Below are positions 11,483 through 30,401 of a stretch of 33,088 nt of DNA, piece by piece. The translations under genes and the position numbers were made by a program. Location of the stretch: positions 1,816-34,903 of the forward strand of contig PMFA01000020.1 of the NCBI GenBank assembly GCA_003155915.1, given 5' to 3'. This DNA comes from Acidimicrobiaceae bacterium. GTDB lineage: Bacteria > Actinomycetota > Acidimicrobiia > Acidimicrobiales > RAAP-2. Within the stretch, counting starts at the first letter, position 1. Every line of letters starts with the position of its first letter. The notes beneath the pieces are model-generated. The model was not told the DNA's origin, searched no databases, and saw nothing but the letters and a program-made list of their open reading frames with translations.

Positions 11483-11518
11483 GTGGGCCGCTCGGGTCTC
11501 GATCCCGACACCTTGGGA
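11483..11518 (-). repeat. Repeat B, copy 1: tRNA-Lys 3'-half-like sequence (diverged)
   Basis: Read on the minus strand this is TCCCAAGG, then a T-arm stem-loop, then GCGGCCCAC. The T-stem differs from the other copies by two substitutions that compensate each other: the outer C:G pair is T:A here, so the stem still pairs. Homology stops near the 3' edge of the anticodon loop. No tRNA 5' half exists next to it, so it is not a functional tRNA gene. Confidence 0.75.
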
Positions 11519-12035
11519 GTCTCTCCAATTGGTCATCGAAATCGTTGGTTCGTCACGACCGCCCCATTACCCGTTGGAGTAACGCTCGGTTCACCGACGG
11601 TCCGCGCTCGCCCGTGATCGCGAACGCGAACTCCCAAGACCACTCGCAGCTGGCGAAGTAAGCGAGTGAAACATCGTTCCTTGACCTGGAAGGCGACACC
11701 GTAGGGGAACTCAGGCGTCGCTCGAAGGCCCATCGGTCGAGCTGGCTTTCATACCACCCCCCTCAGAATGGGTTTCGCACTATTGCGCCCAGCGCCGTGC
11801 CGCCGAGATTTTTCTCGCGCTGTCAGGCGCGGAAAACTTGCCCGCTGCGTTCCCGAGTGATCATTCACGACCTGTGAGGGACGTTGACCAAGACCGATCC
11901 TCAACGGGCCTTATGGAGAGCAATTCATTTCTAGGCGGCCAAGCCTTCGACAACGCCCGGGGCGAATCACTTTTTTTAGTTTGACCGCATGATTCAGGTA
12001 GAAGGCCAAGTGTCCTGGTCGATACCGTCGTAGGC
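11519..12035. other. Intergenic region upstream of the flavin reductase-ada operon
   Basis: About 515 bp with no credible gene on either strand. The promoter of the downstream operon must lie here. A TTGACC at 11981 is present, but no convincing -10 follows at proper spacing. The short open frames in it have unlikely compositions and no ribosome-binding sites. Confidence 0.4.
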
Positions 12036-12644
12036 ATGCACACGGTCATAACCCCAAAAATCCTCTATCTCGGAACCCCGGTTGTACTCATAAGCACTAT
12101 GAATCAAGATGGATCTGTGAATCTCGCTCCCATGTCATCGGCGTGGTGGCTGGGCCTCACTGGTGTTCTAGGCCTTGGAACTCGGGGCCAAACTTTTGCC
12201 AATTTGCAACGAGATGGAGAGTGCGTTTTGAATCTCCCTTCCGTTGACCAAGCAGCGGCGGTGGACCGTCTCGCGCTGACGACGGGAATGGATCCCGTTC
12301 CGGGTTACAAAAAAGAGATGGGCTTTCGGCACGTGAAGGACAAATTCGCCGAGGCGGGTCTGAGCGCGGGTCCTTCGGACCTCGTGCGCCCTTCTCGAGT
12401 GATGGACGTTCCAATTCAACTGGAGGCGAAGGTCACCGCAATTCATTCCGTCGGTGCGATTGAGGACTATTCGGCGTGCATCGAAGTGCAGATTCTTCGA
12501 GTACACGTGGAAGAAGAGTTACTCGACCCGGAGTTTCGACACCATATCTCTCCCGACCGCTGGCGACCGTTGATTATGAGCTTTCTCGACTTCTACGGTC
12601 TTGGAGATCGAGTCCATCCCTCGCGGCTCGCGGAGGTGTTTTGA
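12036..12644 (+). CDS. Flavin reductase-like, FMN-binding split-barrel protein
   Basis: 202 residues. The N-terminal half carries the flavin reductase-like split barrel: TPVVLISTMNQDGSVNLAPMSSAWW, in short form, matches the FMN-phosphate-binding strand-turn, followed by LGLGTRGQTFANLQRDGECVLNLPS. Members bind FMN and reduce flavin or small substrates with NAD(P)H; the actual substrate is unknown. Its TGA overlaps the ATG of ada by one base, so it heads a three-gene operon with ada and a DMT exporter. That linkage to alkylation repair suggests an auxiliary detoxifying role, which is inference. The ATG at 12036 lacks a strong ribosome-binding site. Confidence 0.85.
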   Translation: MHTVITPKILYLGTPVVLISTMNQDGSVNLAPMSSAWWLGLTGVLGLGTRGQTFANLQRDGECVLNLPSVDQAAAVDRLALTTGMDPVPGYKKEMGFRHVKDKFAEAGLSAGPSDLVRPSRVMDVPIQLEAKVTAIHSVGAIEDYSACIEVQILRVHVEEELLDPEFRHHISPDRWRPLIMSFLDFYGLGDRVHPSRLAEVF

Positions 12645-13714
12645 TGACGCGCGTTGTGTTGTCCTCAGCGAGTGAGCTCGAAGACGAACGCTGGCGTGCG
12701 GTGGAGGAGCGGTCCCAACGTGATGACGGACGATTCATCTTCGCCGTGCGCACAACTGGTATCTATTGTCGGCCCTCGTGCTCGGCGCGACGAGCGCGCC
12801 GTGAGAATGTCGAGTTTTTCGGCGACCCACAAAGCGCGCGCGACGCCGGATACCGCGCGTGTCGTCGATGCATGCCCGACGCTGCTGTCAGTGGAGTGAC
12901 CGAGTGGGTGACGAAACTCTGCCGTCGACTCGAGGAGCCCGGCAAGGTTCCCACGCTCTTGGAGTTGGCAGATTTGGTTGGACTGAGTCCGTCACACGTG
13001 CAGCGCACGTTTAGTAGGGAAATGGGCGTCAGTCCACACCAGTACGGGAAAGCTCGTCGCATCGAAGGCCTGCGCTCTGAGCTACGCAGTGGTACTGACG
13101 TGACCTCGGCGGTGTATGAAGTCGGCTTTAATTCCAACAGTGTCGCCTACGCCCAGGCGAAGCCCGGACTGGGCATGACTCCTCGGCGTTGGCGCGACGG
13201 CGGACGCGGCGAACGTATTTACTACACGGTTCTTGCGTCGGATCTTGGCCAGGTCTTAGTGGCGGCAACGAACGCGGGTCTCGTGGCCGTACGCATCGGC
13301 GACGAAGCAGCACTGGTCACTGAAGTGCGCGCCGAGTTCCCGCTGGCCGATTTTCGTCGTGATGACAAATTACTCTCCCAAGAATCACACGCCGTCTTGT
13401 CGCGCACGCTGGGACTCACGAACCCTCCACCAATTTCCCTCGATATCGCCGCGACTGCTTTTCAGGCGCGCGTGTGGAGTGCGCTCCGGGTCATCCCATC
13501 GGGTGAAACCAGGTCCTACGCCGACGTGGCGACGATGATTGGAGAGCCAACCGCGGTGCGAGCGGTGGCTAGAGCGTGCGCCAGTAATCCAGTGGCCCTC
13601 GTAGTCCCGTGCCATCGGGTGGTGCGCTCCGATGGAGCGCTGGGTGGCTACCGATGGGGCCCAGAGGTGAAAGAGACATTGCTCGCGGTGGAAGGCGCTC
13701 ACCGACGCCCATGA
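12644..13714 (+). CDS. ada: Ada: methyl-phosphotriester/O6-methylguanine DNA methyltransferase and AraC-type activator
   Basis: 356 residues with the full Ada layout. The N-terminal zinc domain has C42, C46, C73 and C76 in GIYCRPSC and RACRRCMPD; C42 matches the methyl-phosphotriester acceptor of E. coli Ada. An AraC-type helix-turn-helix region covers about 90-185 (LLELADLVGLSPSHVQRTF, then VGFNSNSVAYAQAK). The C-terminal methyltransferase domain has the acceptor motif VVPCHRVV with C323. Methyl transfer to the first Cys turns the protein into an activator of alkylation-repair genes. The frame is open further upstream to 12476, but GGAGGTG just before the ATG at 12644 decides the start. It overlaps its upstream neighbour by 1 bp and its downstream neighbour by 4 bp, so all three are co-translated. 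Confidence 0.95.
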   Translation: MTRVVLSSASELEDERWRAVEERSQRDDGRFIFAVRTTGIYCRPSCSARRARRENVEFFGDPQSARDAGYRACRRCMPDAAVSGVTEWVTKLCRRLEEPGKVPTLLELADLVGLSPSHVQRTFSREMGVSPHQYGKARRIEGLRSELRSGTDVTSAVYEVGFNSNSVAYAQAKPGLGMTPRRWRDGGRGERIYYTVLASDLGQVLVAATNAGLVAVRIGDEAALVTEVRAEFPLADFRRDDKLLSQESHAVLSRTLGLTNPPPISLDIAATAFQARVWSALRVIPSGETRSYADVATMIGEPTAVRAVARACASNPVALVVPCHRVVRSDGALGGYRWGPEVKETLLAVEGAHRRP

Positions 13715-14676
13715 GGAAATCGCCCACGGCGCTGGGTGTCACGACGGGCCGACGGCACGTCGTCGTGGCGTGGCAGACGTGGTTCGTGCTTCTCGGAGCA
13801 ATCTGGGGTTGTTCATTCTGGTGGATCAAGCTCGGGCTGCGCTCGATGTCGCCCGTGGATGTCGCCTTCGCCCGGCTCGTCGCGGGCGCCGCCACGCTGC
13901 TCTTGATCGCCGTATTTACCCGCACGCCGCTGCCTCGGAATCTGAAGACGTGGGGCCACCTATTCGTCCTCTCGGCGCTGCTGAACAGCGTCCCTTTCAC
14001 CCTCTTCGCTTACGGTGAGACCCACATCTCGGCGGTGCTGGCGGGGCTCATCAACGCCTTCACCCCGCTTGCCACGGTGATTGTCGCCGTGTTTATCTTG
14101 CGCCAAGAGCCGTACAGTTCGACAGTCATTGGCGGGCTGGTCGTCGGCTTGATCGGCGTGGTGGTGGTCATCGGAGCCTGGAACGGCTTCGGCAAGAGCC
14201 AGCTGCTGGGCATTGGCGCATGCCTCGTTGCCGTCATATGTTACGGCTTCGGTTTCTCGTACGCCCGTGGCCACCTCGGCAGGTTGCCCGACAAGCCGGT
14301 CGCCTTGGCCACGGGTCAGGTCCTGTGCGGGACCCTGCAGCTGTTGCCCTTTTCCCTCGTGTTCGGCCACGTCCAGGCACATCGCCCGCTGTCGTCGCTC
14401 ATGGCCTTGGGTGCCCTCGGTATCCTCGGCACCGGCGTCGCCTACATACTTAACTTCCACATTGTTCGCCACGCTCCCGCAACCATCGCCAGCAGCGTCA
14501 CGTACCTCACGCCCATCTTCGCCGTCGCCGTCGGCGTCGCGTTTCTCGGCGAATCGTTGAGTTGGAACGAGCCGGTGGGCGCGTTGCTCATCCTCGTCGG
14601 TGCCGCGCTCGCCCAGGATCGCCTCCGCCGCCCACTGCGCGCAAGCGACGACGTCCGAACCCAGGATCTCGCCTGA
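13711..14676 (+). CDS. DMT-superfamily EamA-type exporter
   Basis: 321 residues from an ATG that overlaps the ada stop as ATGA. The protein has ten hydrophobic segments in two EamA repeats. The first begins WFVLLGAIWGCSFWWIKLG with PVDVAFARL; the second ends SSVTYLTPIFAVAVGVAFLGE. This is the normal size for the family, which moves amino acids, metabolites or toxic compounds across the inner membrane. Its place in the ada operon suggests that it is induced by alkylation and might export a damaged metabolite; that is inference. A clear paralogue lies at 17525-18502. The open frame extends upstream into ada, but the overlapping start is preferred. Confidence 0.92.
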   Translation: MRKSPTALGVTTGRRHVVVAWQTWFVLLGAIWGCSFWWIKLGLRSMSPVDVAFARLVAGAATLLLIAVFTRTPLPRNLKTWGHLFVLSALLNSVPFTLFAYGETHISAVLAGLINAFTPLATVIVAVFILRQEPYSSTVIGGLVVGLIGVVVVIGAWNGFGKSQLLGIGACLVAVICYGFGFSYARGHLGRLPDKPVALATGQVLCGTLQLLPFSLVFGHVQAHRPLSSLMALGALGILGTGVAYILNFHIVRHAPATIASSVTYLTPIFAVAVGVAFLGESLSWNEPVGALLILVGAALAQDRLRRPLRASDDVRTQDLA

Positions 14677-14813
14677 AGCAGGGATGCCGTGACTCGCACA
14701 TGGCCCGTATGACGATGACGTTCAAATTTCACCGCGATGCCGAGTCGTGGGCTACACCAGCGACATCATGGGTCTTGTCGAACATCTAGGTGGGGAAGAG
14801 CGTGGGGACCGGC

Positions 14814-14993
14814 ATGAACGATGAAGAACTTCACAATGTCGCGAACTTTCGTTGGCGAGTCGAGGAATCGATGCGAGAGAGTGATCGCTTGAAAGGCGAG
14901 AGCGCGGGTGTTTTCGATGGGCGCGTCGTCGGGCCAACCAGCAACCCGGTCCCGTCTACCTTTTCTTCGTGTGACTACGCAGCTAGATGCTGA
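14814..14993 (+). CDS. Possible small hypothetical protein
   Basis: 59 codons from an ATG preceded by GTGGGGACC. The first ~36 residues (MNDEELHNVANFRWRVEES...) are charged and amphipathic like a real protein; the last third is less convincing. It converges with the membrane-protein gene on the other strand, overlapping its end by 11 bp. There is no recognised family. It may be the start of a truncated gene or chance. The rest of the 14677-14982 gap shows nothing. Confidence 0.25.
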   Translation: MNDEELHNVANFRWRVEESMRESDRLKGESAGVFDGRVVGPTSNPVPSTFSSCDYAARC

Positions 14994-15528
14994 CCTCTGG
15001 ATCTATTTGAAGGTAGTGGCGGATCCCGAGGAGCACGAGGAAGAGCATCGCCAGGGCCAGCACGAAAGCCGCGATTGCCCCGAAGAGGGCGATCTGGCCC
15101 ATGAAGCCAAAGGCGTAGGCGTTGAGCAACAGGCCGCGCAGCGTGTCGCCGCGGAACACGAGTTCGACCTGGTTCGCAAGGGCTGTGTTGCCCGGGTCGC
15201 TGAGGGACGCGTTGCTCAGTTGGGCGTAGGTCTTGCCTCCGGAGATCGCCATGGTGTCCACGCCGATGATGTCGTTGGCAAAGATCTGCGCCTCGGAGCC
15301 GGTCAACACTTCTTCGCCCGCGTATTGGGTCAGGTGAGCCTTGACCAAGTCCTGGTAGTCCCGCCCGCCAACCTTGGGGAAGAAGACCTTCTGCTCTTGG
15401 AGCTGTGATCGAACTTGGGAAGAGGTGAAGCTATTGCCGATCACCAGGCCCACACCCGCGACAATGAGTACCACGGTGAGCACAGTGCCCACCCAGTTGA
15501 GTAGCAGGTCCAATGTCTTGCGGCGCAT
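14983..15528 (-). CDS. Two-helix actinobacterial membrane protein (of the type often mislabelled LigA)
   Basis: 181 residues. A first membrane helix at about 11-33 (WVGTVLTVVLIVAGVGLVIG) follows a basic start. A ~105-residue outer domain (FTSSQVRSQLQEQKVFFPK, ISGGKTYAQLSNA) lies between it and a second helix near 143-170. The C-terminal tail is short (LGIRHYLQIDPE). This layout and the FFP..QL..YAG wording are familiar from small actinobacterial membrane proteins that databases sometimes call LigA, a name with no experimental basis here. GGGAGTGAACT precedes the ATG at 15528. The function is unknown. Confidence 0.82.
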   Translation of the reverse strand: MRRKTLDLLLNWVGTVLTVVLIVAGVGLVIGNSFTSSQVRSQLQEQKVFFPKVGGRDYQDLVKAHLTQYAGEEVLTGSEAQIFANDIIGVDTMAISGGKTYAQLSNASLSDPGNTALANQVELVFRGDTLRGLLLNAYAFGFMGQIALFGAIAAFVLALAMLFLVLLGIRHYLQIDPEVSI

Positions 15529-15928
15529 AGTTCACTCCCGTTTGGCTCGTCTTGTTTTCAAACAGCCTTCCACCACGAACACGAAGAGCCATAGGGAAGT
15601 AAGTCCCTTTGATGCCCGTCGGCGATCATTTCCATGGCGGGGGGCGCCGGAAACGGCACCCCGCGGGACCAGAGTTCAGGAAGGGTCCTATCGTCGTCGA
15701 GTGACTGACAGAGCGTCCTCTCCACGACACAACGTCTGCCCCCCTGGGATCACAACGTCTCGGCACGCGTCGAGGACCGGATCCGCGCAATCCGGGGGGA
15801 GAAACCTCGACAGTTTGGTATCAAAATGGAGGAGGTAGCTGCAGCGTTGTGTCGCATGGTCTGCCACAATTGCAAAGTGGCTGAATGAATCGTACCGGCA
15901 CAGATGGGGGCTAAGGCAGTTCAAAAAC

Positions 15929-15992
15929 GGCGTTGTCGATTGTCACTCGGGTTTTGCGGTGTTGCGGAAGTATGAGGTCCAAATTGAGGCCC
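15929..15992 (-). repeat. Repeat A, copy 2, in the 15529-16521 gap
   Basis: The plus strand reads GTTGTCGATTGTC, GTTTTGCGGTGTTGCGG and TATGAGGTCCAAATTGAGGCC, the family order. It lies 124 bp before repeat B at 16117, giving an A-B unit of ~230 bp also seen at 24871-25108 and, with a shorter A box, at 30200-30401. Between A and B this copy shares GCGACCGTTG and GAGCGTGAACGTTC-like words with the other two units. The stretch from 15529 to here shows no gene. Confidence 0.65.
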
Positions 15993-16116
15993 ATGGCGTC
16001 GTTGGCGAGGAGCTCCGGACGCTCCAATCCCACTGCGAAGTCTTGGAAGTTGCTCGTTCTCGAGTGATAGTGAGGCGACCGTTGCGGTCCGCGAGCGTGA
16101 ACGTTCGCTCTTCTTA

Positions 16117-16159
16117 GTGGGCCGCCCGGGTCTCGATCCCGGCACCTTGGGATTAAAAG
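16117..16159 (-). repeat. Repeat B, copy 2: tRNA-Lys(TTT) 3'-half-like attachment-type sequence
   Basis: Read on the minus strand: CTTTTAA anticodon loop (anticodon TTT), TCCCA half-stem, AGGTG variable loop, T-arm CCGGG-ATCGAGA-CCCGG, then GCGGCCC and the discriminator A. The sequence before the anticodon loop does not pair with TCCCA and no D-arm exists, so only the 3' half is present. Tyrosine-recombinase elements commonly use exactly this part of tRNA genes as the core attachment site. Confidence 0.8.
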
Positions 16160-16181
16160 AGGGATGCATTTGGTCAGATTC

Positions 16182-16238
16182 GTCCGGTGGTGTCGGAATC
16201 ATCCGAGAATCAAAGAAAATCTGTCCGGTGGTGTCGGA
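16182..16238. repeat. Short direct repeat
   Basis: The 16-mer GTCCGGTGGTGTCGGA occurs at 16182-16197 and again at 16223-16238, 41 bp apart, just beyond repeat B copy 2. A 6-bp inverted repeat (TGTGCG/CGCACA) follows at 16256-16276. The role is unknown. Confidence 0.6.
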
Positions 16239-16431
16239 TTGGTAACGGGATGAAATGTGCGATTTTTGAGCGCACAGTGCCACTTCGCACCGCGTTAATC
16301 CATCAGTGAGTGTTCAACTTCGACATATTCGAAACGCCTGCCACCTCGCGTAAGTCAGTCAAGTTCGTGAGCCATCCTCAGAGGGTTTGGTCTCCAAGTT
16401 TCCCGACACGATTCAGCCAATCAGCAGAGGC

Positions 16432-16460
16432 TTGACAAGCGATGAGGTCTTTGTTATCTT
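16432..16460 (+). promoter_or_regulatory. Sigma-70-type promoter of the secreted protein
   Basis: TTGACA at 16432-16437, exactly 17 bp, then TATCTT at 16455-16460. The -35 is perfect and the -10 differs from consensus at two positions. Transcription would start near 16467, which excludes the upstream start at 16387. Confidence 0.75.
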
Positions 16461-16521
16461 CGAACATCGGCCAGGGCATAATTGGTGTCCCGTTCCGCTA
16501 CGACGAAAACGGGACACTTCT

Positions 16522-17154
16522 ATGACTTCGGCACTGCACTATTCCGTTACAGCTCGGAATCGGACCGGACAAAGGCGGATCACCAGAATGTGCGCACGTC
16601 TTGCGAGTCTGGCGAGCGTTGCCGTAGTGGGCACGCTGATTTGCGCAACGACAGTGGTTTCGCCGGCGGGTGCAAGTGGGTCGTCGATCGGCTCGTTTAC
16701 GTTGACCGGCCAAGTCGTGGCGAAGCTAAAGACCTCCAAAGAAATCAAATTCGTCGAGAATCTTGATGGAACCTCAATCCCGATGACGCTGCATGGCTGT
16801 CAAGTCGGGCAACCAGGCACCAACGCGGACATAATCAACGTTCCCGCCGGAAAAGTTGTCTTGAACGGACACTCAACGAAGGTCACCGCCATCGAATTCA
16901 GTGTGCCTTTCGACGGTAAGAGCGACACACTCTCTACTTCCGGCAGTCAGCTGAGTTTTGGCTTGGAGGCTGGAAAACTGTCCTATTTGTGGGTAAGTAC
17001 CTCGGGAACTCTCACCACGACGGCGAAGGGACAAAGCGGCACATTCAGCGCGACCCTTGTACCTTCGGCGACTGGCACCGCAACGGGCAACGACCATGCC
17101 TCAAAGCCACTGCAAGTGAGTGGATCGTGGGCAAGCTGCACCCCGTGGCCGTGA
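16522..17154 (+). CDS. Secreted hypothetical protein with signal peptide
   Basis: 210 residues. An Arg-rich n-region (RNRTGQRRITRMCAR) is followed by a hydrophobic core (LASLASVAVVGTLI) and a likely cleavage after SPAGA. The mature ~160-residue part is Ser/Thr/Gly-rich and beta-like (GSFTLTGQVVAKL, TLSTSGSQLSFGLEAGKL), ending in SWASCTPWP, with a second Cys in LHGCQVG, so one disulfide is possible. I recognise no family. A strong promoter at 16432-16460 ends 61 bp upstream. The ATG at 16522 keeps the basic n-region; an ATG at 16588 is an alternative start. It is a single-gene unit just downstream of repeat B copy 2. Confidence 0.7.
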   Translation: MTSALHYSVTARNRTGQRRITRMCARLASLASVAVVGTLICATTVVSPAGASGSSIGSFTLTGQVVAKLKTSKEIKFVENLDGTSIPMTLHGCQVGQPGTNADIINVPAGKVVLNGHSTKVTAIEFSVPFDGKSDTLSTSGSQLSFGLEAGKLSYLWVSTSGTLTTTAKGQSGTFSATLVPSATGTATGNDHASKPLQVSGSWASCTPWP

Positions 17155-17387
17155 TTTGGTGCCGCAATGTCGAAATATGAAGTAATTGCATACCAATTGT
17201 GATCATATGTTGATTGGCATTACCGTCTTTCTGAATACGGGCTCTCGATTGCATCCGAGATGGTTGGGCGGGTTCAACCGCTCATCGCAACGGTCCCAAG
17301 CGGTACGCTTTGCAAGCGAGCACCCTTTCGTTGTCCAATGAACATCACTGATTCCGAGCGAACCGGGAAGCTTTTAGTCGCCATTGC

Positions 17388-17421
17388 TTGATTGCAGAAC
17401 TATGTTGCCTAAAATGAGGTC
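17388..17421 (-). repeat. Partial repeat A in the 17155-17524 gap
   Basis: The plus strand reads TTGCAGAACTATG then GCCTAAAATGAGG. This matches the 3' part of repeat A at 24030-24090 (TTGCAGAAATATG, GCCTAAAATGAGG). The 5' part of the repeat is not recognisable. The rest of the 370 bp gap shows no gene. Confidence 0.45.
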
Positions 17422-17524
17422 TATTCTTCCGTGACATTGATCTCCAGACGCACCAGATTTGTCGAAGCTGAGAGGTCTTGCCGCTCTACTTGGTCATTAG
17501 GACCTGCACGAAACCCAGACCGAT

Positions 17525-18502
17525 TCATTCGGGATGCCTGTCGATGGCGGCCTTATTCGAATTGTTCTGAGAAATCGCGGTTCCGAGAAGTATGAGAGCG
17601 CCACCGGCCGGTTCGTACCAAGTGATGGATTCGCTGAGGAAGACAGCGGCGACGATAACGGCGACGATCGGGGTTAGATACGTGACGCTGCTCGCAATGG
17701 CTGCAGAAGTGTGTCCGGCAATGTGAAAGTACAGCACATAGGCGAAGCCAGTTCCAATGAGCCCAAGGGCAAGTAACCCGAGTACCGAGGAAGAATGAGG
17801 ATGGCCGACTGGGCCTCCTATGACAATGGCAAAGGGAAGAAGTTGGCTGACCCCGCAAATCAGCTGACCTGCTGCGAGGGAGACCGGGGAGTCACCCCGA
17901 GCCGCCAGATGGCGAGATGAGTACGGAAACGCTACTCCGAAGCTGATGACAGCGAGTAAGCATGCACCGATACCGAGTAGCTGACTAGTACCAAAGCCAT
18001 TCCAAATCCCGGTTACAAAGAGAACCCCGACGAACCCCACTAACAGACCACCAAGAAGCTTTGCGGTGGGATGTACTTGACGAAATACGAGGAGCGAGAC
18101 GCCGAGGGTGACCATAGGAGTGAGGCCGTTGATGATTCCTGCGAGTGCTGCGTCAATTCGGGTTTCACCGAAGGCGAACAGCGTGAACGGGACGCTGTTC
18201 AGAAGCAGCGCCAGTACGAAGAGATGACCCCACGTTGCCCGATCGTGGGGAAGCGACGTCCTGGTGACCAACGCGACAACGACCAGCGTGACGGCACCAA
18301 GCACGAGTCGGCCAAAGGCTACGTCGACCGGGGAGAACGACCGAAGCCCCAGCTTGATAAACCAGAACGAGCAGCCCCAGATTGCTCCTAGGGCAAAGAA
18401 GGACACCTTCCAGGGAATCGTCATCCCATGTGCCGTACTGATGCCGATTCTCTTCCGGACCGGTGGATACTTCTTCCACTCACTTCGACTAGGTGTTGCC
18501 AT
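17525..18502 (-). CDS. DMT-superfamily EamA-type exporter, paralogue of the ada-operon exporter
   Basis: 325 residues with ten hydrophobic segments in two EamA repeats. It aligns without large gaps to the product of 13711-14676: both have GAIWGCSFW.IKLGLRS.SPVDVAF, WGHLFVL.LLNSVPFTLFA.GET and SQLLGIGACL.AVI (dots mark differences). The two genes are divergent copies, not a recent duplication, since DNA identity is only partial. The start at 18502 has no clear ribosome-binding site; an internal ATG (MTIPWK, residue 27) is another option. It stands alone, 105 bp from the end of the NmrA-like gene, in a module separate from ada. The substrate is unknown. Confidence 0.9.
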   Translation of the reverse strand: MATPSRSEWKKYPPVRKRIGISTAHGMTIPWKVSFFALGAIWGCSFWFIKLGLRSFSPVDVAFGRLVLGAVTLVVVALVTRTSLPHDRATWGHLFVLALLLNSVPFTLFAFGETRIDAALAGIINGLTPMVTLGVSLLVFRQVHPTAKLLGGLLVGFVGVLFVTGIWNGFGTSQLLGIGACLLAVISFGVAFPYSSRHLAARGDSPVSLAAGQLICGVSQLLPFAIVIGGPVGHPHSSSVLGLLALGLIGTGFAYVLYFHIAGHTSAAIASSVTYLTPIVAVIVAAVFLSESITWYEPAGGALILLGTAISQNNSNKAAIDRHPE

Positions 18503-24209: not shown

Positions 24210-24416
24210 ATGGCCCTCACAGTTCGCACCGATTCGGTCCTCGAGGAAGCGCTCGCCTCACTCTCCAAACTTGAAGGCATCTCGCGCCAAGAGATCATTC
24301 GGCGTGCTGTCCTCGAGCGCTACGAGCGGTCCGACCATGTCATTCGCACGAACGACTCGACTCAACGCATGGTCGCACGATGGGGAGACGTTTTGGAGCG
24401 GCTTGGCTCTGAGTGA
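24210..24416 (+). CDS. Ribbon-helix-helix antitoxin paired with Doc toxin
   Basis: 68 residues. LTVRTDSVLEEALASLSK forms the expected beta-strand and first helix and EGISRQEIIRRAVLERY the second helix of a ribbon-helix-helix domain; the C-terminal half (RWGDVLERLGSE) is the likely toxin-neutralising part. The frame opens further upstream, but the ATG at 24210 fits the RHH start. There is no ribosome-binding site between the operator and ATG, so a leaderless mRNA is plausible. It overlaps the toxin start by 4 bp (GTGA), the usual antitoxin-first order. It acts in the cytoplasm, binding the toxin and the palindrome at 24184. Confidence 0.85.
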   Translation: MALTVRTDSVLEEALASLSKLEGISRQEIIRRAVLERYERSDHVIRTNDSTQRMVARWGDVLERLGSE

Positions 24417-24796
24417 TCGAAATCGAGTATCTCGACCTCGAGGACGTCGTGGAGATGGTGCGAATTCTAATGGTCGGCCCAATCCGTGACGTGGGACTCT
24501 TGGACTCTGCGGTCAATCGGCCTCGATCAAGCGCCTTTGGTGATGACGCCTATCTAACCCTCGAGCTCAAGGCAGCTGCTCTTCTTCATTCCATGACGAA
24601 GAACCACGCGCTTGTCGATGGCAATAAGAGGCTTGCGTGGCTCTGCACTGTTGTGTTTTGTGATTTAAATGATTTCTCATCGGACCTCTCTGATGATGAA
24701 GCTTTCCAACTGGTGTGGGAGATAGCGAGTTCCGCAATGGACATCGCATTGATTGCGAAACGGCTTCGACTTGTGCCAAGTCAATCCTCGTCATAA
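24413..24796 (+). CDS. doc: Doc-type (Fic-fold) toxin
   Basis: 127 residues, the normal Doc length. IEIEYLDLEDVVEMVRIL opens the fold, RPRSSAFGDDAYLTLELKAAAL follows, and the Fic motif reads HALVDGNKRLAW, equivalent to HxFxDGNKR of Doc. Characterised Doc kinases phosphorylate elongation factor Tu at a conserved Thr and stop translation; the same target is expected here. The Phe usual in the second motif position is Leu. The GTG start at 24413 overlaps the antitoxin stop. This short operon is bounded by repeat A copies at 24030 and 24871, so it looks like the cargo of a small mobile unit. Confidence 0.88.
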   Translation: MIEIEYLDLEDVVEMVRILMVGPIRDVGLLDSAVNRPRSSAFGDDAYLTLELKAAALLHSMTKNHALVDGNKRLAWLCTVVFCDLNDFSSDLSDDEAFQLVWEIASSAMDIALIAKRLRLVPSQSSS

Positions 24797-24870: not shown

Positions 24871-24936
24871 GCGGTATTGTCGCTCGTCGGTCGTGTTTCG
24901 CAGTGTCGCAGAATACGGCGGCCCAAAATGAGGCCT
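24871..24936 (-). repeat. Repeat A, copy 4
   Basis: Plus strand GCGGTATTGTCGCTCGTCGG, GTTTCGCAGTGTCGCAG, then GGCCCAAAATGAGGCC. It shares its first 18 bp with copy 1 at 8176. It is followed 137 bp later by repeat B copy 5, forming an A-B unit; the interval holds GCGACCGTTGGGATC and GAGCGTCAACGTTC-type words shared with the units at 16.0 and 30.3 kb. Confidence 0.65.
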
Positions 24937-25072
24937 GCAGCGGTGCGCGACGCATTACAGAATCAAAGTAAGGGCGGTTTGCGAAATGGCGAGTCATTCG
25001 AAATTATTCGAATTTTCTTCCTGGACACCGCGACCGTTGGGATCCACGAGCGTCAACGTTCAGAATCATGTA

Positions 25073-25108
25073 GTGGGCCGCCCGGGTCCCGATCCCGGCA
25101 TCTTGGGA
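25073..25108 (-). repeat. Repeat B, copy 5: tRNA-Lys 3'-half-like sequence (diverged)
   Basis: T-stem and acceptor part as in the other copies, with one T-loop change (ATCGGGA) and an altered variable loop. Identity ends at TCCCA, before the anticodon loop, as in copy 1. Confidence 0.75.
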
Positions 25109-25151
25109 GTGTTTCCAGAATCTCCCGGGACGACACCCAGCGTCCAGATCT

Positions 25152-25183
25152 GTTGGCTGGACAGCGTGCACTGTCCAGCCAAC
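25152..25183. repeat. Perfect 13-bp inverted repeat (hairpin)
   Basis: GTTGGCTGGACAG, CGTGCA loop, CTGTCCAGCCAAC. No T-run follows on either strand, so it is not a classical intrinsic terminator. It lies 43 bp beyond repeat B copy 5, in a gap without genes. Confidence 0.7.
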
Positions 25184-25327
25184 GTCCACTGACGACCTCT
25201 CACGTTTGAATTCGTGGCGAGACAGTTGGCTAGACCAGGGATCGTTTCAAGGTCAAACCACTATCCAGTTACGAGGGTCCGACGGTGAGGGGTTCGGGTT
25301 GCGACTGGGCGACCAGTAAACAATTCC

Positions 25328-25462
25328 TCAGACGATCTCGTGACCAACAGACCCGTCAAAATTCAGCCACTCTCCTTTGATAACTTCGCTCCCGTATCGG
25401 AACCAGTCGAAATCCGTTCCGAGACGGGAACAGAATTCTAAGAGCGCTTGTCCGAGTCGATT
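25328..25462 (-). pseudogene. Possible gene fragment downstream of the MBL hydrolase
   Basis: A start-less open frame of ~44 codons on the minus strand ends at TGA 25328-25330. Its translation (GQALLEFCSRLGTDFDW, then FRYGSEVIKGEWLNFDG) has a protein-like composition, and an in-frame TAA precedes it. It may be the tail of a lost gene between repeat B copy 5 and the MBL gene. No family is recognised. Confidence 0.22.
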
Positions 25463-25541
25463 TTATCTTGAACGCCCCGCTGACGGGACTTCTTCTCTCG
25501 GTCAACTGCCAATGTGCGGTTACTCAAGTCGTGCGCCAACA

Positions 25542-26489
25542 TTAGATCCGCTCGAAGGGTGCCCATTCGGCGAGCGCGAATTCCGATCCCACTCGCTGGA
25601 CGGAAAATCCACCGTGACCACCGAAGTGCGCAGCCAGCATCAGAATGTTCTTGTCGGCGGCCTCAGCGAAGAGCTTTCGGCGGGTCGAGCTCGCTTGGAC
25701 GACGTCCTCGCAGAAACAAGAACTGAAGTTCGGAGCGACGATTTGTGCCGGGGTGTGTAACGTGTCGCCAATGAGGAGCACTTCCTCACCCCGTGAACTC
25801 ACTCGCAGAATCGACGATCCGGGAGTATGCCCCGGCGCAGTTTCGAGCACGAGGTTCTCATCGATTCGGTGCGCGCGCGTCCACGGTCGCACTAGGCCCT
25901 CGGCGAGGACCGGGGCGACGCTGTCCTCGAAGGCGTTCTGCGCACCGGGGCCCATAACGGTTTTGTGTCCGTTCGCCGGATTCCAGAACTCGAGCTCCTC
26001 GCTGGGCATGAAATACTCGGCGTTCTTGAAAGTGGGCACCCAGGTTCTGCCGTCGAGGCGAGTGTTCCAACCCACGTGATCGACGTGGAGGTGGGTGTTC
26101 ACGACGATGTCGACATCGTCGGGCGCCACACCAACCGCGGCGAGATTGGCCAGATATCCGGTATCGAGGTGGGACCAACTAGGAATGTAAGGTCGCTCTT
26201 TGTGATTGCCGATGCCCGTATCGAGCAAGATGGTCCGACCTCCGCTGCGCAGTACCCAGGTCTGCATGGCGACTCGACAGGTGTGTTCCATCGTCGTAGC
26301 ACCAGAGGGTATGAGAAAGTCAGGCGTGAGCCAATCCTCGTTTTCTTCCCACACCTCGGTGGTCGAGTCGGGGAAGAACTGCCGTGGCGTCATGCCAACG
26401 CTTCCAACCAGCTCCACCGCTCGGGTGATGGTCACGTCCCCGAACGTCATCTCGTGAACGGTCGGTAGTTTCTCCTGTGTAGCTTCCAT
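25542..26489 (-). CDS. Metallo-beta-lactamase-fold hydrolase
   Basis: 315 residues. The metal-binding motif THLHVDH (His133, His135, Asp137, His138) follows ILLDTGIGNHK; further ligands are expected at APGHTPGS, LIGDTLH and AAHFGGH. This is the layout of lactonase-like and other small-molecule MBL hydrolases with two zinc ions. The extra segment at 35-70 (FFPDSTTEVWEENEDWL) is seen in a subgroup of actinobacterial and proteobacterial members. AAGGAGGAACAC precedes the ATG at 26489. It is divergent from an MmyB-type XRE regulator, which probably controls it; the substrate is unknown. Confidence 0.9.
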   Translation of the reverse strand: MEATQEKLPTVHEMTFGDVTITRAVELVGSVGMTPRQFFPDSTTEVWEENEDWLTPDFLIPSGATTMEHTCRVAMQTWVLRSGGRTILLDTGIGNHKERPYIPSWSHLDTGYLANLAAVGVAPDDVDIVVNTHLHVDHVGWNTRLDGRTWVPTFKNAEYFMPSEELEFWNPANGHKTVMGPGAQNAFEDSVAPVLAEGLVRPWTRAHRIDENLVLETAPGHTPGSSILRVSSRGEEVLLIGDTLHTPAQIVAPNFSSCFCEDVVQASSTRRKLFAEAADKNILMLAAHFGGHGGFSVQRVGSEFALAEWAPFERI

Positions 26490-26623
26490 GTGTTCCTCCT
26501 TAGTAGGTTTTGCGGGTATTGACGGCGCGACTTAGGGCGCCGGATTCACAGCGTATGGTCGTCGTTGCACTTCATCCAGACCCAATCGTTCCTACCCCTG
26601 GCGGGGACAGGCAGCGTTAGCCA

Positions 26624-27586
26624 GTGACCGTGCATACTGAATGGATGCGCACACCTTCGGGCCCAGGACCACTCGGCGAGTTCTTACACGCGTGCCGGAG
26701 CCGTGTCCGTCCAGAAGATCTCGGATTGCCCACTTACGGTGAGCGTCGACGGGTCAGTGGGCTGCGGCGCGAGGAATTGGCAATGCTGGCTGGCGTGAGT
26801 TCGTCGTACTACACCCGCCTGGAGCAAGGGCAGTCCCGCAACGCGTCACCTCAAGTGCTCGACGCTATCGCTACCGCGCTCCAACTTGATGACGCGGAAC
26901 GTCAGCACCTACGCACGCTGGGAGCAGCCATCGACCAGCGTGCGGCCACGAAGCGCCCGGCGACTGAGCGGGTGGCGCCGGCGCTGACTGAACTGCTCAT
27001 CGCGCTAGTTGACGTCCCGGCGGTCGTGCTCGGTCGCCGCAGCGACGTGCTCGCCTGGAACGATCTGGGCCATGCTCTTCTTGCGGGGCACATCGACATT
27101 TCGGACGCGGGCGCGGTGAACCGCCGACCGAACATGGCAGAGTTGGTATTCCTCGACGAACACTGTCGCGATTTGTACGTCGACTGCGTGGCGAAGGAAC
27201 GCGCCGTTGTCGGCAATCTACGACTGGTTAGCGGCCAACACCCCGACGATCCTGCGCTCGCTTCACTCGTCGGCAGGTTAACCATGGCTAGTCCCGACTT
27301 TGCCGCGTTGTGGGCCGATCATCGAGTGCGCGCGTGCGCCAGCGCCCGCTACGAGTTGCACCATCCGCTCGTGGGAACTCTCACCGTGACTCAACAGACG
27401 TTGCGTTCGGTCGACGTACCTGACCAGTCGCTCGTGACCTGCACCACAGAACGTGACTCACCCTCTGCCGAGGCACTGATCCTGCTCGCCCAAATCATTC
27501 GCAACGCGGTTGGTTTACGGGTCGCCCGTATCGGTCAAACGCATGGATCACAACAGGGACCGGCCCGTCTCACCGACGACGCCTAA
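26624..27586 (+). CDS. XRE-family regulator with MmyB-like ligand-binding domain
   Basis: 320 residues. An N-terminal helix-turn-helix (about 20-95) carries GPLGEFLHACRSRV, RVSGLRREELAMLAGVSSSYYTRLEQG and VLDAIATALQLDDAERQHL, the wording typical of MmyB-type XRE proteins. The C-terminal ~200 residues (DVPAVVLGRRSDVLAWNDLGHALL, YELHHPLVGTLTV) match the MmyB-like PAS-type pocket that binds fatty-acid-like ligands in a known structure. Such regulators usually sit divergent from the SDR or hydrolase they control, here the MBL gene 134 bp away. The GTG start at 26624 lacks a clear ribosome-binding site; ATG 26645 is an alternative. Confidence 0.9.
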   Translation: MTVHTEWMRTPSGPGPLGEFLHACRSRVRPEDLGLPTYGERRRVSGLRREELAMLAGVSSSYYTRLEQGQSRNASPQVLDAIATALQLDDAERQHLRTLGAAIDQRAATKRPATERVAPALTELLIALVDVPAVVLGRRSDVLAWNDLGHALLAGHIDISDAGAVNRRPNMAELVFLDEHCRDLYVDCVAKERAVVGNLRLVSGQHPDDPALASLVGRLTMASPDFAALWADHRVRACASARYELHHPLVGTLTVTQQTLRSVDVPDQSLVTCTTERDSPSAEALILLAQIIRNAVGLRVARIGQTHGSQQGPARLTDDA

Positions 27587-27968
27587 AGTCCGTTCAAAGA
27601 GATCCTCACCCAGGCCGAGACGGGGCTTGTCTGCCATTTTTTCCGACAAAGTGATATCTCGCTAGTTTCTCGAATTCGCTCGTTCAAACTGCTGACTTCA
27701 AGGGTTGCTTCTGAAGTTTGTGGGACATGCCTTGCGGTGTCCGGGCTCGAACAATTGGTCCACTCCCATTGCCGGAGACGTACCACTGGCTGGTGAAGGG
27801 GGTTGTAATCGAGCCGCGGTGACGCTGGAATGTGCGGCCTGAAATGATGCTCGTCCAGAAACCTGGGGTTGCGCTCGATACTCGAATAGGTCTAACCGAG
27901 CTGGAGACAAAATGGTCTCTCGTATACCTTTCGTGATTCATAATGACGCGACCATTGAGTGAGGGGCA
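27587..27968. other. Gene-free stretch with a weak repeat A trace
   Basis: 380 bp between the XRE gene and the end of the marR gene. TGTGCGGCCTGAAATGATGC near 27832 resembles the core of repeat A but lacks the rest. A GTGGGACATGCC...GGGCTCGAAC string near 27719 faintly recalls repeat B but does not form the T-arm. No credible ORF is present. Confidence 0.35.
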
Positions 27969-28424
27969 TCACGTCCTGGGTGGTTGAGCTTGGACGAGAC
28001 ATTGCAATAATCGGGTCAGCGTGGCCGACTCTGCGCTAGAGAGAGGAGCGAGAATTTCTTGCTCAGCTTTCTTTACCGCCTTGAGAGTGTCTCGGAGTCT
28101 CTTGCGGCCCGCTTCCGTGGTCTGAAGTAGGTAGGCGCGCCGATTGCTGGGATCCCTGAGGCGGTTGACCAGCCCTTTTTCTTCGAGAGCGTCGACAAGC
28201 GCCACCATTGTCGTGCGGTCTACGCCGACACGGTCCGCGAGTCGCTGTTGGGACGCCGGCCCTTCGGACTCGATGAGTGTTAGCACGGCGAACTCTCGGC
28301 CGCTGATGTTGAGTTGGGTGAGCCCCAGCTCGATGGCGTCCTCCAGCAGAGCGTACGCACGCTTGAGGAGAAACGACATCCGCTCCATTAGCGCCGCCGG
28401 GACCCCTGGAATGATCTCGTTCAT
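27969..28424 (-). CDS. MarR-family repressor
   Basis: 151 residues, the standard MarR length. N-terminal dimerisation helix (LLKRAYALLEDAIE), then the winged helix-turn-helix: GREFAVLTLIESEGPASQQRLADRVGVDRTTMV (positions ~42-75), with the wing at RLRDPSNRRAYLLQTT. The Asp-x-Arg pair typical of MarR wings is present (RDPSNRR). The gene is divergent from an SDR; two identical 13-bp boxes occupy the gap, so the protein probably represses both directions. There is no ribosome-binding site near ATG 28424; the mRNA may be nearly leaderless. The ligand is unknown, but MarR proteins of this kind often respond to quinones or phenolics. Confidence 0.9.
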   Translation of the reverse strand: MNEIIPGVPAALMERMSFLLKRAYALLEDAIELGLTQLNISGREFAVLTLIESEGPASQQRLADRVGVDRTTMVALVDALEEKGLVNRLRDPSNRRAYLLQTTEAGRKRLRDTLKAVKKAEQEILAPLSSAESATLTRLLQCLVQAQPPRT

Positions 28425-28437
28425 GTTGCAAGTGTAG

Positions 28438-28480
28438 CAGGACTACTGATAATCAGTTATACTGATAATCAGTAGTCCTG
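28438..28480. promoter_or_regulatory. Tandem MarR boxes in a 43-bp near-perfect palindrome
   Basis: The 13-bp palindrome ACTGATAATCAGT occurs at 28445-28457 and 28461-28473, separated by TAT. The flanks CAGGACT and AGTCCTG make the whole 43 bp self-complementary apart from one symmetric mismatch. The box centres are 16 bp apart. TTGCAA (28426-28431) with GATAAT inside the left box could form the plus-strand promoter of the SDR, and TATACT spans the middle. A repressor here would block both divergent genes. Confidence 0.85.
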
Positions 28481-28522
28481 AGTAACGGTCTCGATTGACG
28501 AAACACACGAAAGGTTTTAACA

Positions 28523-29236
28523 ATGACGACAATACAAATTGGCACACCGGTGAGCCTGGTGACGGGCGCGAACAAGGGGATTGGGTTGGAAACGGTGCGT
28601 CGGCTTATTGGCGCGGGGCACCGCGTGTACCTCGCCGCTCGAGACGTCGAGCGTGGCCGCACGGCTGCGGAGGCACTCGGTGCACGCTTCGTGGAACTCG
28701 ACGTCACGAGCGACGCGTCGGTGCGACTCGCCGCCAACGTCGTCGAACGTGAAGAGGGTCATCTCGACGTGCTGGTCAATAATGCCGGCATCACCGGTCC
28801 CTTGCGCGACGTTCATGAGTACACCGGTGAAGACGTGGCAGCGGTGCTGCTGACGAACGTGGCTGGCTACGTCAGAGTAATGCACGCATTCCTTCCGCTC
28901 CTCGAACTCTCCGCGGATCCACGAATCGTCAACGTGAGCAGTGGGCTGGGCTCTTTCGCCTTGTTCCACGACTCAAGTCGAATCGAGTCGCGTGCCGGTA
29001 CGCCACTTTATGGAGCCGCCAAGTCCGCAATCAACATGTTGACCGCTCGCTACGCGCAACTACTTCCCGGTATCCGCATCAACAGCGCCGACCCCGGTAT
29101 GACTGCCACCGACCTCAGCGGCGGACAGGGCCACTCAGTGAAAGACGGCACCGACGCGATCATCGCGTTTGCTATTGGCGGACCCGACACTCCGACCGGT
29201 GCCTACCGTGACGGCGACGGCGATCTTCCCTGGTAA
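28523..29236 (+). CDS. Short-chain dehydrogenase/reductase (classical SDR)
   Basis: 237 residues. The cofactor motif TGANKGIG (14-21) follows SLVT; ARD near 39-41 suggests NADP preference; the LDV...NNAG motif lies at 82-89; catalytic Ser140 (NVSS) and Tyr163-x-x-x-Lys167 (YGAAK) are all present. It is close to carbonyl-reductase-type SDRs with LVTGANKGIG. GAAAGG upstream of the ATG is a fair ribosome-binding site. It is the first gene of a two-gene operon with an NmrA-like reductase 49 bp downstream, and divergent from marR. Likely reduces a reactive carbonyl or quinone using NADPH; the exact substrate is not readable. Confidence 0.92.
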   Translation: MTTIQIGTPVSLVTGANKGIGLETVRRLIGAGHRVYLAARDVERGRTAAEALGARFVELDVTSDASVRLAANVVEREEGHLDVLVNNAGITGPLRDVHEYTGEDVAAVLLTNVAGYVRVMHAFLPLLELSADPRIVNVSSGLGSFALFHDSSRIESRAGTPLYGAAKSAINMLTARYAQLLPGIRINSADPGMTATDLSGGQGHSVKDGTDAIIAFAIGGPDTPTGAYRDGDGDLPW

Positions 29237-29285
29237 TCAGCAATTTTTTAAACAAATAAACCAACCGATCTCGAAAGGATCAATC

Positions 29286-30134
29286 ATGTACCTCATCACC
29301 GGATCAACTGGCAACGTCGGCCGCGACCTCGTAGACCAGCTTCATAAAAAAGGCCACCAAGTGAGGGCCCTCGTCCGCGACGCCTCTCGCGCTGACGTGC
29401 TTCCCAAGGGGATCGACGTCGCCGTCGGGAGTCTCGACGACGCTGACAGTTTGGTCGAAGCCCTCCGCGGAGTTGAAAGCGTTTTCCTCATGCACGTCGG
29501 TGCCGGCACCGCCCAGACACAGACCATGATCGACGCCGCGCGCTCCGCAGGGGTGAATCGAGTCGTGTTGCTTTCCTCTATCGGCGCGCGACTCATTCCT
29601 CTCGCTGGTTTCATCCCCGGGACGCTTGCCGCTCGTGAAGATCTCTTGCGTGAGTCGGGACTGGACGTTACCTATCTGCGACCGAACGGATTTATGTCGA
29701 ATGCACTGTCGTGGGTCGATGGCATCCGCGAGAAGAACTGCGTCATTGACGCGACCGACCCGGGTCGCCAGCCAGTTGTCGATCCCTACGACATCGCGCG
29801 CATCGCCGCTCTCGCTCTCACTGAAGACGGCCACGTTGGCCACGGTTACATTCTCAACGGACCCGAGGCGCTCACCGCTCGTGAACAGGTTGGGATTATT
29901 TCCGATGTCCTAGGGCGCGCTATCGACTTCGTCGACGTCACACCCGAGCAGTTCGCACAGGACAGCATCGAACAGGGTACCCCGATACCGCTCGCCGAAG
30001 CCATGAAGAATCTCAACGAGCTTTTCCGTGCGGGCCGAGCCGGTGTGATTGCTGACGACATCGAGAACCTCACCGGCGTCGCGCCGCGAACCTTTCGCGA
30101 ATGGTGCGAGAGTCACGTGGGCGAGTTGCGCTGA
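29286..30134 (+). CDS. NmrA-like NAD(P)-binding reductase (azoreductase/quinone-reductase type)
   Basis: 282 residues from ATG 29286, chosen because GAAAGGATC precedes it; the open frame begins at 29169 inside the SDR. The N-terminal MYLITGSTGNVGRDLV is the atypical-SDR Rossmann motif, followed by LVRDASRADVLP, GSLDDADSL, VFLMHVG, RVVLLSSIGAR and YLRPNGFMSN. Proteins of this shape include NAD(P)H-dependent quinone and azo reductases and NmrA-like redox sensors. It has the same fold as the protein at 18608-19441 but belongs to a different operon. Likely co-expressed with the SDR under MarR control. Confidence 0.9.
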   Translation: MYLITGSTGNVGRDLVDQLHKKGHQVRALVRDASRADVLPKGIDVAVGSLDDADSLVEALRGVESVFLMHVGAGTAQTQTMIDAARSAGVNRVVLLSSIGARLIPLAGFIPGTLAAREDLLRESGLDVTYLRPNGFMSNALSWVDGIREKNCVIDATDPGRQPVVDPYDIARIAALALTEDGHVGHGYILNGPEALTAREQVGIISDVLGRAIDFVDVTPEQFAQDSIEQGTPIPLAEAMKNLNELFRAGRAGVIADDIENLTGVAPRTFREWCESHVGELR

Positions 30135-30199
30135 GAAGTATTCCTCCTTTTGCAATTGGTCGGTGCGTCCGGATCTGCGTATGGTTTGGCACGTGGACG

Positions 30200-30243
30200 G
30201 GGTTGTCGAAGGATTGGGCAAGTGCGGGGCCCAAAAAGAGGAC
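30200..30243 (-). repeat. Repeat A, copy 5 (shortened)
   Basis: Plus strand GGTTGTCGAAGGATTGGGC then TGCGGGGCCCAAAAAGAGG, keeping the GTTGTCG and GGCC-AAAA-GAGG words of the family. Repeat B copy 6 follows 115 bp later, and the interval shares GCGACCGTTG and GATC with the other A-B units. A possible A variant (ATGTTAGGG, AAATTAGGG) follows repeat B at 30500-30523. Confidence 0.5.
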
Positions 30244-30247
30244 TGCG

Positions 30248-30282
30248 ACATGTCATTGACGTGGATTACGTCAATGACATGT
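30248..30282. repeat. Perfect 15-bp inverted repeat between repeats A and B
   Basis: ACATGTCATTGACGT, GGATT, ACGTCAATGACATGT: arms 30248-30262 and 30268-30282, no mismatch. It begins 5 bp after repeat A. No T-run follows, so it is not a standard terminator. The other two A-B units have no such hairpin at this position. Confidence 0.8.
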
Positions 30283-30358
30283 CTCGATTTTCGAATTTCT
30301 TCATCTTCCTACTGGGGAGCCGCGACCGTTGTGATCTTCGAACACGGAACGAACTTTT

Positions 30359-30401
30359 GTGGGCCGCCCGGGTCTCGATCCCGGCACCTTGGGATTAAAA
30401 G
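30359..30401 (-). repeat. Repeat B, copy 6: tRNA-Lys(TTT) 3'-half-like sequence
   Basis: The 43 bp are identical to copy 2 and to the reverse complement of copy 3: anticodon loop CTTTTAA, T-arm, acceptor strand and discriminator A. No tRNA 5' half is adjacent. The remaining bases up to 30667 hold no gene. Confidence 0.8.

Follow-up and report, generated by a model that had tools for sequence, protein, structure and literature searches.

Introduction

Arrays of elements accreted at the 3' end of one RNA gene are already known as such, from the ssrA islands of Dehalococcoides, from cis-mobilizable elements (CIMEs) and from the tRNA-Lys repeats of Ca. Methylopumilus. In Dehalococcoides many islands lie in tandem behind an RNA gene that is present once per genome, and a copy of the 3' end of this gene borders each island; some of them, devoid of integration genes, were termed possible cis-mobilizable elements (PMC3146451). 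For CIMEs and integrative and mobilizable elements (IMEs), accretion has been reviewed in three steps, namely insertion, loss of the integrase with the attachment sites kept, and new insertion at the regenerated gene end; the same review reports unrelated integrases acting on one site, with one cited case in tRNA-Lys (PMC5704250). In Ca. Methylopumilus, the terminal 20 bp of tRNA-Lys(ctt) recur in an additive flexible island (PMC10872708). Here we describe a 33,088-nt stretch of the genome of an uncultured Acidimicrobiaceae bacterium (GCA_003155915.1, contig PMFA01000020.1, positions 1,816 to 34,903 of the forward strand; hereafter the window), in which six copies of the 3' half of tRNA-Lys(TTT) separate small groups of genes. 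We regard it as very probable that the region arose by tandem accretion of integrative elements behind this tRNA gene, most of them now reduced to integrase-less cassettes of about 3 kb with genes for metabolism, transport, toxin-antitoxin pairs and AbiE.

Among the described arrays that we met, those of Dehalococcoides and Methylopumilus come closest. In the former, the 3' end of an integrase gene (DsiB) overlaps the attachment site, as in the integrases called class A below; however, the Dehalococcoides islands use serine recombinases and a 20-bp tmRNA repeat, whereas here we found tyrosine integrases, a 43-bp tRNA repeat and several classes of flanking arms (PMC3146451). In Methylopumilus, too, a variable island (0.3-42 kb) is marked by pieces of the tRNA-Lys end that occur repeatedly, but the organism belongs to another phylum, and in the text seen the island is described without arm classes or integrase assignment (PMC10872708). 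The reviewed tandems include integrative and conjugative elements and IMEs (PMC5704250), whereas our arrays have at most 10 sites per contig, a median interval of 3 kb and no conjugation gene among the annotated families. Islands bounded by tRNA direct repeats are also present in marine actinobacteria, the Ca. Actinomarinales, but there they involve several tRNAs and mainly one envelope-related island, and the word integrase is absent from the text seen (PMC7771536). Finally, tycheposons, described in Prochlorococcus, resemble our segments as cargo elements beside tRNAs with tyrosine recombinases, in the description given in PMC10872708. In a literature search that left most subscription papers outside, we found no account of such arrays for Acidimicrobiaceae, of arm classes, or of an integrase-free class on two tRNA-Lys genes.

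Results

TRNA-Lys(TTT) 3' halves in the window and in the genome

In the following, G000 is the genome that contains the window, C1 the contig of the window, other G-numbers are genomes of relatives and L-numbers are fetched loci; coordinates without a contig name are window positions. The repeat is the exact 3' half of tRNA-Lys(TTT), from the anticodon loop to the discriminator base. Allowing up to three mismatches, we found copies at 11483, 16117, 21777, 23923, 25073 and 30359 and no others in the window, and none at all in 100 dinucleotide shuffles of it; in 20 mononucleotide shuffles the best match was still 13 mismatches off. A first-pass annotation, made by a model from the letters of the window, had listed these six copies, with the one at 21777 inverted, and on both points it was right. 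Its description of the repeat as reaching from the anticodon loop to the discriminator base held for the four full 43-mers (16117, 21777, 23923 and 30359, with one loop change at 23923), but not for the copies at 11483 and 25073, in which only about 36 bp are kept (TCCCAAGG to the 3' end) and the anticodon-loop bases are gone. The annotation had seen neither an intact tRNA nor an integrase, and indeed ARAGORN detected no tRNA in the window, Rfam gave no hit there at gathering score, and C1 had no Phage_integrase match.

In our own gene list all six copies are intergenic, compared with 20% of the 43-mers of the window (p ~7e-5, a simple independence estimate). Over the whole genome, eight matches were obtained at up to three mismatches, seven on C1 and one in an intact gene, so that at this threshold the repeat is limited to this locus. 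Since a further copy with four mismatches is present at C1:36977, there are eight half-sites on C1; seven of these read toward the same side, the copy at 21777 being the exception.

The intact tRNA gene and its two sides

The intact tRNA-Lys(TTT) gene, which the annotation had proposed to look for, was located at G000:C21:7-79, on the minus strand and at the contig edge; its 3' half has the same sequence as the copies at 16117, 21777 and 30359. The relative G036 has a P-type ATPase gene and a PPK2 gene behind an intact tRNA-Lys(TTT). Position C1:40000 falls within a homologue of this ATPase gene (80% nucleotide identity in a 927-column alignment); its counterpart in G036 lies about 1.47 kb behind the tRNA core, and C1 extends 179 bases more. 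On the basis of this alignment, C1 would follow the tRNA of C21 across a gap of about 1.3 kb; the array continues beyond 30359 and would reach to about this distance from the intact tRNA. The locus has an intact target gene at one end and direct-orientation 3' fragments behind it, with one of the eight C1 fragments inverted and the C21-C1 link inferred.

The open reading frames (ORFs) 5' of the tRNA on C21 are collinear with those of four genus members, G001, G011, G019 and G034 (for G034 mostly at 73-95% amino-acid identity), whereas synteny is lacking 3' of the tRNA. For G000 and G034 the only common stretch on the 3' side, in the stretches compared by blastn (E 1e-8, at least 120 bp), was one of 209 bp, at an arm of the L3 class (see below) with its half-site. 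The far side of the array was not found in the 29-58 kb beyond the tRNA in G034, G001, G019 and G036; two isolated genes in common beyond the tRNA (G019 with G001, and G019 with G013) might be anchors.

In ten intact tRNA-Lys(TTT) genes of the genus (L008, L055, L056, L058, L060, L062, L066, L067, L068 and L073) the sequence of the T-loop is ATCGAGA, compared with TTCGAG in six genes from other genera (L045-L050); position 54 is A in the genus.

Flanking arms define several element classes

The half-sites are flanked by arms of about 200 nt that fall into several families. Arm classes were defined as single-linkage clusters, for which reason their borders are soft: L0 to L3 on the distal side (27, 23, 17 and 6 members) and R0 to R5 on the 3' side (30, 16, 13, 10, 6 and 5 members). 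The arms contain short motifs that recur, for example TAGCCA in L0 and R1, and appear to resemble arm-type recombinase sites. Of 16 R1 flanks, 8 were matched by the L0 profile, and of 39 R0 flanks, 11 by the L1 profile; apart from these, L1 matched one of five R5 flanks, and shuffled flanks gave 0. Among the 30 classified intervals, 16 had one of the pairs supported by these profiles (L0/R1 or L1/R0), where 9.4 would be expected (p=0.0007), and addition of the pairs L3/R4 and L2/R5, matched by eye only, brought the count to 17 of 30 (p=0.0006). R1 pairs with L0 alone (6/6); mixed ends are nevertheless common, because R0 pairs with both L1 (10/18) and L0 (6/18). The R0 and L1 arms together, hereafter class C, form the commonest class, which is found at four of the eight half-sites on C1.

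The features of the window are as follows (strand given where assigned; arms with the nhmmer E value where noted).

8168-8294, minus: weak match to a class C arm, immediately beyond the P-type ATPase gene (E=3e-4 for L1, 2e-6 for R0)
8390-11041: P-type ATPase gene adjoining site 1
11284-11477, minus: R2-class arm on the 3' side of half-site 1 (profile)
11483-11520, minus: half-site 1, anticodon-loop bases lost (repeat search)
11526-16116: segment A, with flavin reductase (12036-12644), Ada-type alkyl-DNA repair regulator (12476-13714) and EamA exporter (13609-14676), by Pfam
15928-16110, minus: R0-class arm (class C) of site 2 (E=8e-25)
16117-16159, minus: half-site 2, full 43 bp
16160-16344, minus: L2-class arm of site 2 (E=4e-44)
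16345-21776: segment B, with an ORF without Pfam match (16387-17154), EamA exporter, NAD(P)-binding, SnoaL-like and alpha/beta hydrolase proteins, and TetR (21107-21754)
21777-21819, plus: half-site 3, full 43 bp, the only one in the opposite orientation, followed by CAGTAAAACA as at R4/R5 sites (weak, E 0.8-6.5)
21820-23922: segment C, with aldo/keto reductase (21950-23032) and TetR (23074-23610)
21843-21871 and 23706-23734: 29-nt inverted repeat inside segment C
23727-23916, minus: R2-class arm of site 4 (E=5e-42)
23923-23965, minus: half-site 4
23966-24127, minus: L1-class arm (class C), distal end of the RHH-Doc cassette (E=1e-47)
24126-24796, plus: segment D, a 1.15-kb cassette encoding a Fic/Doc toxin and a ribbon-helix-helix (RHH) antitoxin between two matched class C arms
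24872-25069, minus: R0-class arm (class C), proximal end of the RHH-Doc cassette (E=2e-34)
25073-25111, minus: half-site 5, anticodon-loop bases lost
25117-25313, minus: L0-class arm of site 5 (E=4e-47)
25314-30358: segment E, with a metallo-beta-lactamase fold protein, MLTR-type helix-turn-helix (HTH) regulator, MarR, SDR and NmrA-like proteins
30198-30346, minus: R0-class arm of site 6 (E=2e-10)
30359-30401, minus: half-site 6, full 43 bp
30402-30600, minus: L3-class arm of site 6 (E=2e-62)
30668-32655, minus: segment F, AbiEii and AbiEi, running past the window to C1:35783

The cassette-like partition suggested at first reading is supported. Weak matches to class C arms were also obtained at 8168-8294, 17392-17477 and, in segment E, 27814-27957 (L1, E 1e-4 to 5e-4), so the partition may be finer than six sites; the core profile found no tRNA half beside any of the three, and none was seen on reading two of the places. 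These arms, those at 27814-27957 and 8168-8294 included, are possibly decayed borders. Half-site 3 and site 4 face inward around the aldo/keto reductase segment (21777-23965), and segment C may be an inversion made by a recombinase.

Integrases at the half-sites of relatives

Two classes of integrase, both with Phage_integrase domains, adjoin the half-sites: class A (about 440 aa when whole) at R1 arms and class B (about 410 aa) at R4 arms. An integrase or its remnant was present within 1.3 kb on the 3' side at 10 of 12 R1 and three of four R4 sites, and at 5 of 67 unclassified sites; none was found over the same distance at R0 (0/33), R2 (0/10), R5 (0/5) or R3 (0/7) sites. At some R1 sites the integrase is fragmentary (81-222 aa). 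Over 1.5 kb on the distal side, integrases were absent from L1 (0/21), L0 (0/24) and L3 (0/6) sites and were seen at one of 13 L2 and two of 11 unclassified ones. The class A open frames, taken from stop to stop, extend into the tRNA half. In the relatives the integrases lie at tRNA-Lys(TTT) and, judging by this position, may act there. The suggestion of the first-pass annotation, serial integration at one tRNA or a recombinase encoded elsewhere, thus gains support from the integrases found at the same tRNA and from the turnover on one side of it; the site is used by several integrase or arm classes, not by one, and the commonest class occurs at tRNA-Lys(CTT) as well.

Within G000, the protein most similar to either class is encoded on C28 (35% identity to class B, 29% to class A; G000:C28:232791-234021, L042). 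Because this protein groups with class B, it was considered as a tRNA-Lys integrase, but it was dropped since its gene lies, at the end of the contig, next to the 5' part of a different tRNA-like sequence. An integrase of another family lies directly behind tRNA-Gly(TCC) (G000:C16:69458-70348, L015 and L043), with short direct repeats, CGAGTGACCA, between them.

Size and cargo of the segments

The 52 complete site-to-site intervals have a median of 3.0 kb and quartiles of 1.9 and 5.2 kb, a set that includes L075 and several intervals, L084, L092 and L129 among them, whose sites are doubtful because they differ from the core at 7-9 positions. The two tRNA copies of L075, 1.5 kb apart, are treated as a scaffold artefact, because of Ns and a repeated flank. 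Any integrase match was found in 6 of the 52 intervals and an integrase of at least 250 aa in 2. In some site counts two contigs, recognised by their names, were counted twice (overlapping loci L069/L129 and G005:C18/L105). In the annotated subset of recurrent array-side families we found integrase, MFS, P-type ATPase, AbiEii-like, enoyl-CoA hydratase, AMP-binding, ABC ATPase and TOTE primase-helicase proteins. No conjugation gene was detected by Pfam in this subset or among the window ORFs, and no replication gene in the subset, unless the TOTE protein is counted; a TOTE conflict-system primase-helicase is encoded in a segment of a related array (L156:3873-6269).

Distribution in the genus and signs of movement

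At least one copy of the repeat is present in 32 of 37 genomes of the genus (G000 included), at least two in 21 and exactly one in 11; among 24 genomes of other genera, eight have one copy each, and the six loci inspected (L045-L050) are intact genes. Copy number grows with genome size (Spearman 0.78 over the 37 genomes, with the sizes of relatives rounded), a correlation to which assembly quality and binning may contribute. Among the matches listed, exact core matches came mostly from metagenome genomes titled Acidimicrobiaceae, Acidimicrobiales, Actinomycetes or uncultured actinobacterium, and many isolate names mention palsa, bog or fen; viral contigs gave no exact match. Up to 10 sites lie on one contig, the intact gene included, and the sites have a single orientation in 27 of the 28 loci with at least two, the exception being the array of the window.

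Taken together, the following cases indicate that cargo recurs at half-sites with changed neighbours. Firstly, L121 and L143 have in common a class A element of 7.06 kb (91% identity), which lies at the intact tRNA in L143 and at a half-site behind an L2 arm in L121; in both, the identity begins at the first base of CTTTTAATCCC, in the anticodon loop. Secondly, the class B integrase of G005 is 99% identical, as protein, to that of L133. Thirdly, G012 and a contig common to G009 and G029 contain the P-type ATPase gene of site 1 (nucleotide identity 86-89%), starting each time 226-379 nt behind a half-site, with different arms or neighbours. Precise excision of integrase-less segments was not seen in the genomes compared.

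A variant 3' half (core CTTTTAATCCTCAGGCGCTGGG) was observed at half-sites and once in an intact tRNA-Lys gene (G008:C128, L255; also G035, G029, G005 and G017; contamination of G008 is 6%). Its presence inside an intact gene is as expected if incoming elements replace the 3' half.

Class C arms at other tRNA genes and the question of a helper recombinase

At up to three mismatches, R0 arms were found in 11 and L1 arms in 12 of 61 genomes, exclusively in members of the genus. The class C arms examined are mostly at the tRNA-Lys(TTT) half or a variant of it; in L259 and L270, however, they lie at the 3' half of tRNA-Lys(CTT), and the intact tRNA-Lys(CTT) of G000 closely matches. Moreover, at C15:112835 in G000 an R0 arm lies behind the half of what seems to be another tRNA, a second, damaged copy of which ends the contig; the 1.1 kb between these tRNA-like halves (G000:C15:112700-113918, L244) has repeat-rich arms and encodes a Gp49-like toxin and an HTH antitoxin. 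This third target is tentative, because the intact tRNA matching the C15 half was not located in our searches.

Class C might consist of satellites that have lacked an integrase from the outset and are mobilised in trans by a recombinase encoded elsewhere, like the cassettes of integrons, an explanation that we find possible and somewhat improbable. It would agree with the lack of integrases at all R0 and L1 sites reported above, with the near-identity or identity of the arms across species, including those at tRNA-Lys(CTT) halves, and with the second toxin-antitoxin segment at the end of C15. Furthermore, the 61 class C arm loci, which are up to about 3 kb long and in many cases overlap, contain one clear integrase, which belongs to a class A site, and eight marginal matches (E >1e-3), and the ten R0-L1 intervals span 1.15-6.75 kb. 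However, loss of the integrase from each element would give the same picture, and one of the ten intervals (L074) does hold tyrosine recombinases. These are overlapping genes for 407 and 812 aa beside an IS3-like transposase (L074:1716-6730). The pair was set aside as the class C recombinase since it sits with that transposase and had no match in the 37 genomes searched, a set lacking G023-G036; this blank says little, because the genome of the pair, G028, was itself outside that set. The search for a helper, which used this query and these genomes, accordingly yielded none. A further step, which we propose tentatively and hold unlikely, would make class C an integron analogue built on tRNAs, with cargo-only cassettes down to the 1.15-kb toxin-antitoxin pair, constant arms, a core exchanged between tRNA-Lys(TTT), tRNA-Lys(CTT) and possibly a third tRNA, and the recombinase outside the array.

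Discussion

The anatomy of the array matches tandem accretion with integrase loss, as reviewed for CIMEs and IMEs. In the mechanism that we propose, a circular element with an attachment site, consisting of the tRNA 3' half flanked by its own arms, would enter the 3' half of the intact gene, a tyrosine integrase recombining the two. The tRNA would stay intact because the element supplies a new 3' half, and the displaced half would become the far border of the insert. As the next element would enter at the regenerated tRNA, older inserts would move outward, each of them keeping one tRNA 3' half. Several element classes, distinguished by their arms and, where present, by their integrases, would share the site, and most segments, now without integrase, would survive as short cassettes still bounded by attachment sites. 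Direct observation covers the sites and their arms, the intact tRNA, the integrases at the same tRNA in relatives, the one element in two contexts and the one-sided turnover; the order of insertion, the past action of integrases on cassettes that now lack one, and any present mobility are what we infer from this anatomy.

Several observations weigh against serial accretion. The arms are unmatched in 14 of the 30 classified intervals, two of the window copies have lost their loop bases and one site of the array is inverted. No integrase of class A or B was recognised in G000 itself, and neither excision, nor a circle, nor an empty site in the same species was seen. The contigs break at the sites, the adjacency of C1 and C21 is deduced from G036, and the chromosome past the far end of the array was identified in no genome. 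In addition, contigs C96 and C14 of G009 and C57 of G029 are 99.5-99.98% identical over about 33 kb, through several half-sites, with no segment gained or lost and only an 84-bp difference in the spacing of two sites; this, the only near-identical pair that we met, speaks against recent movement. These contigs probably derive from one organism binned twice: G029:C57, near-identical to G009 and with the core variant of G009, unlike the intact tRNA of G029, is probably in the wrong bin, and for this reason the copy number of G029 may be inflated.

Some of these features recall another explanation, namely that RecA-dependent homologous recombination between halves and arms shuffles the segments today, integrases having only seeded the first insertions. 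The mixed arm pairs (R0-L0 in 6 of 30 intervals) and the inverted site would fit it, and arms and cores offer 100-300 nt at about 70-90% identity between sites. Yet L121 and L143 become alike precisely where the core begins, the flank on one side being unrelated, matched arm pairs are more frequent than expected, and shuffling leaves the origin of the tRNA halves unexplained; we hold it rather unlikely. An artefact of assembly or binning could be suspected from the assembly in 29 contigs with a contig end at the tRNA, from Ns near one segment, and from the likely scaffold duplication in L075 and the G009-like contig probably placed in the bin of G029, but is very improbable given two or more copies in 21 of the 37 genomes of the genus. 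A chromosomal integron with attC sites, which the short cassettes, one of them a toxin-antitoxin pair, might bring to mind, is hardly credible, since none of the six tyrosine recombinases of G000 reaches the integron-integrase cut-off (the best, a Xer-type protein, scores 122.6 against 265 bits) and the borders seen are tRNA-Lys 3' halves with arms, anchored at an intact tRNA. Equally far-fetched are ordinary intergenic repeats (terminators or REP-like hairpins) or chance tRNA pseudogenes: the intergenic position of all six copies and the hairpin that the T-arm can form would fit them, but confinement to one locus, an intact-tRNA anchor, arm classes and integrases at the same site contradict them.

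Read as a tandem accretion array, the locus and its counterparts offer a genus-wide natural record of how islands anchored at a tRNA grow, with several arm-defined classes stacking at one tRNA gene. In practice, the core together with the arms marks where cargo, toxin-antitoxin and AbiE genes among it, begins and ends in genomes that are not finished. If it is true that class C cassettes move in trans, they would represent a gene-capture system comparable to integrons, built on tRNAs.

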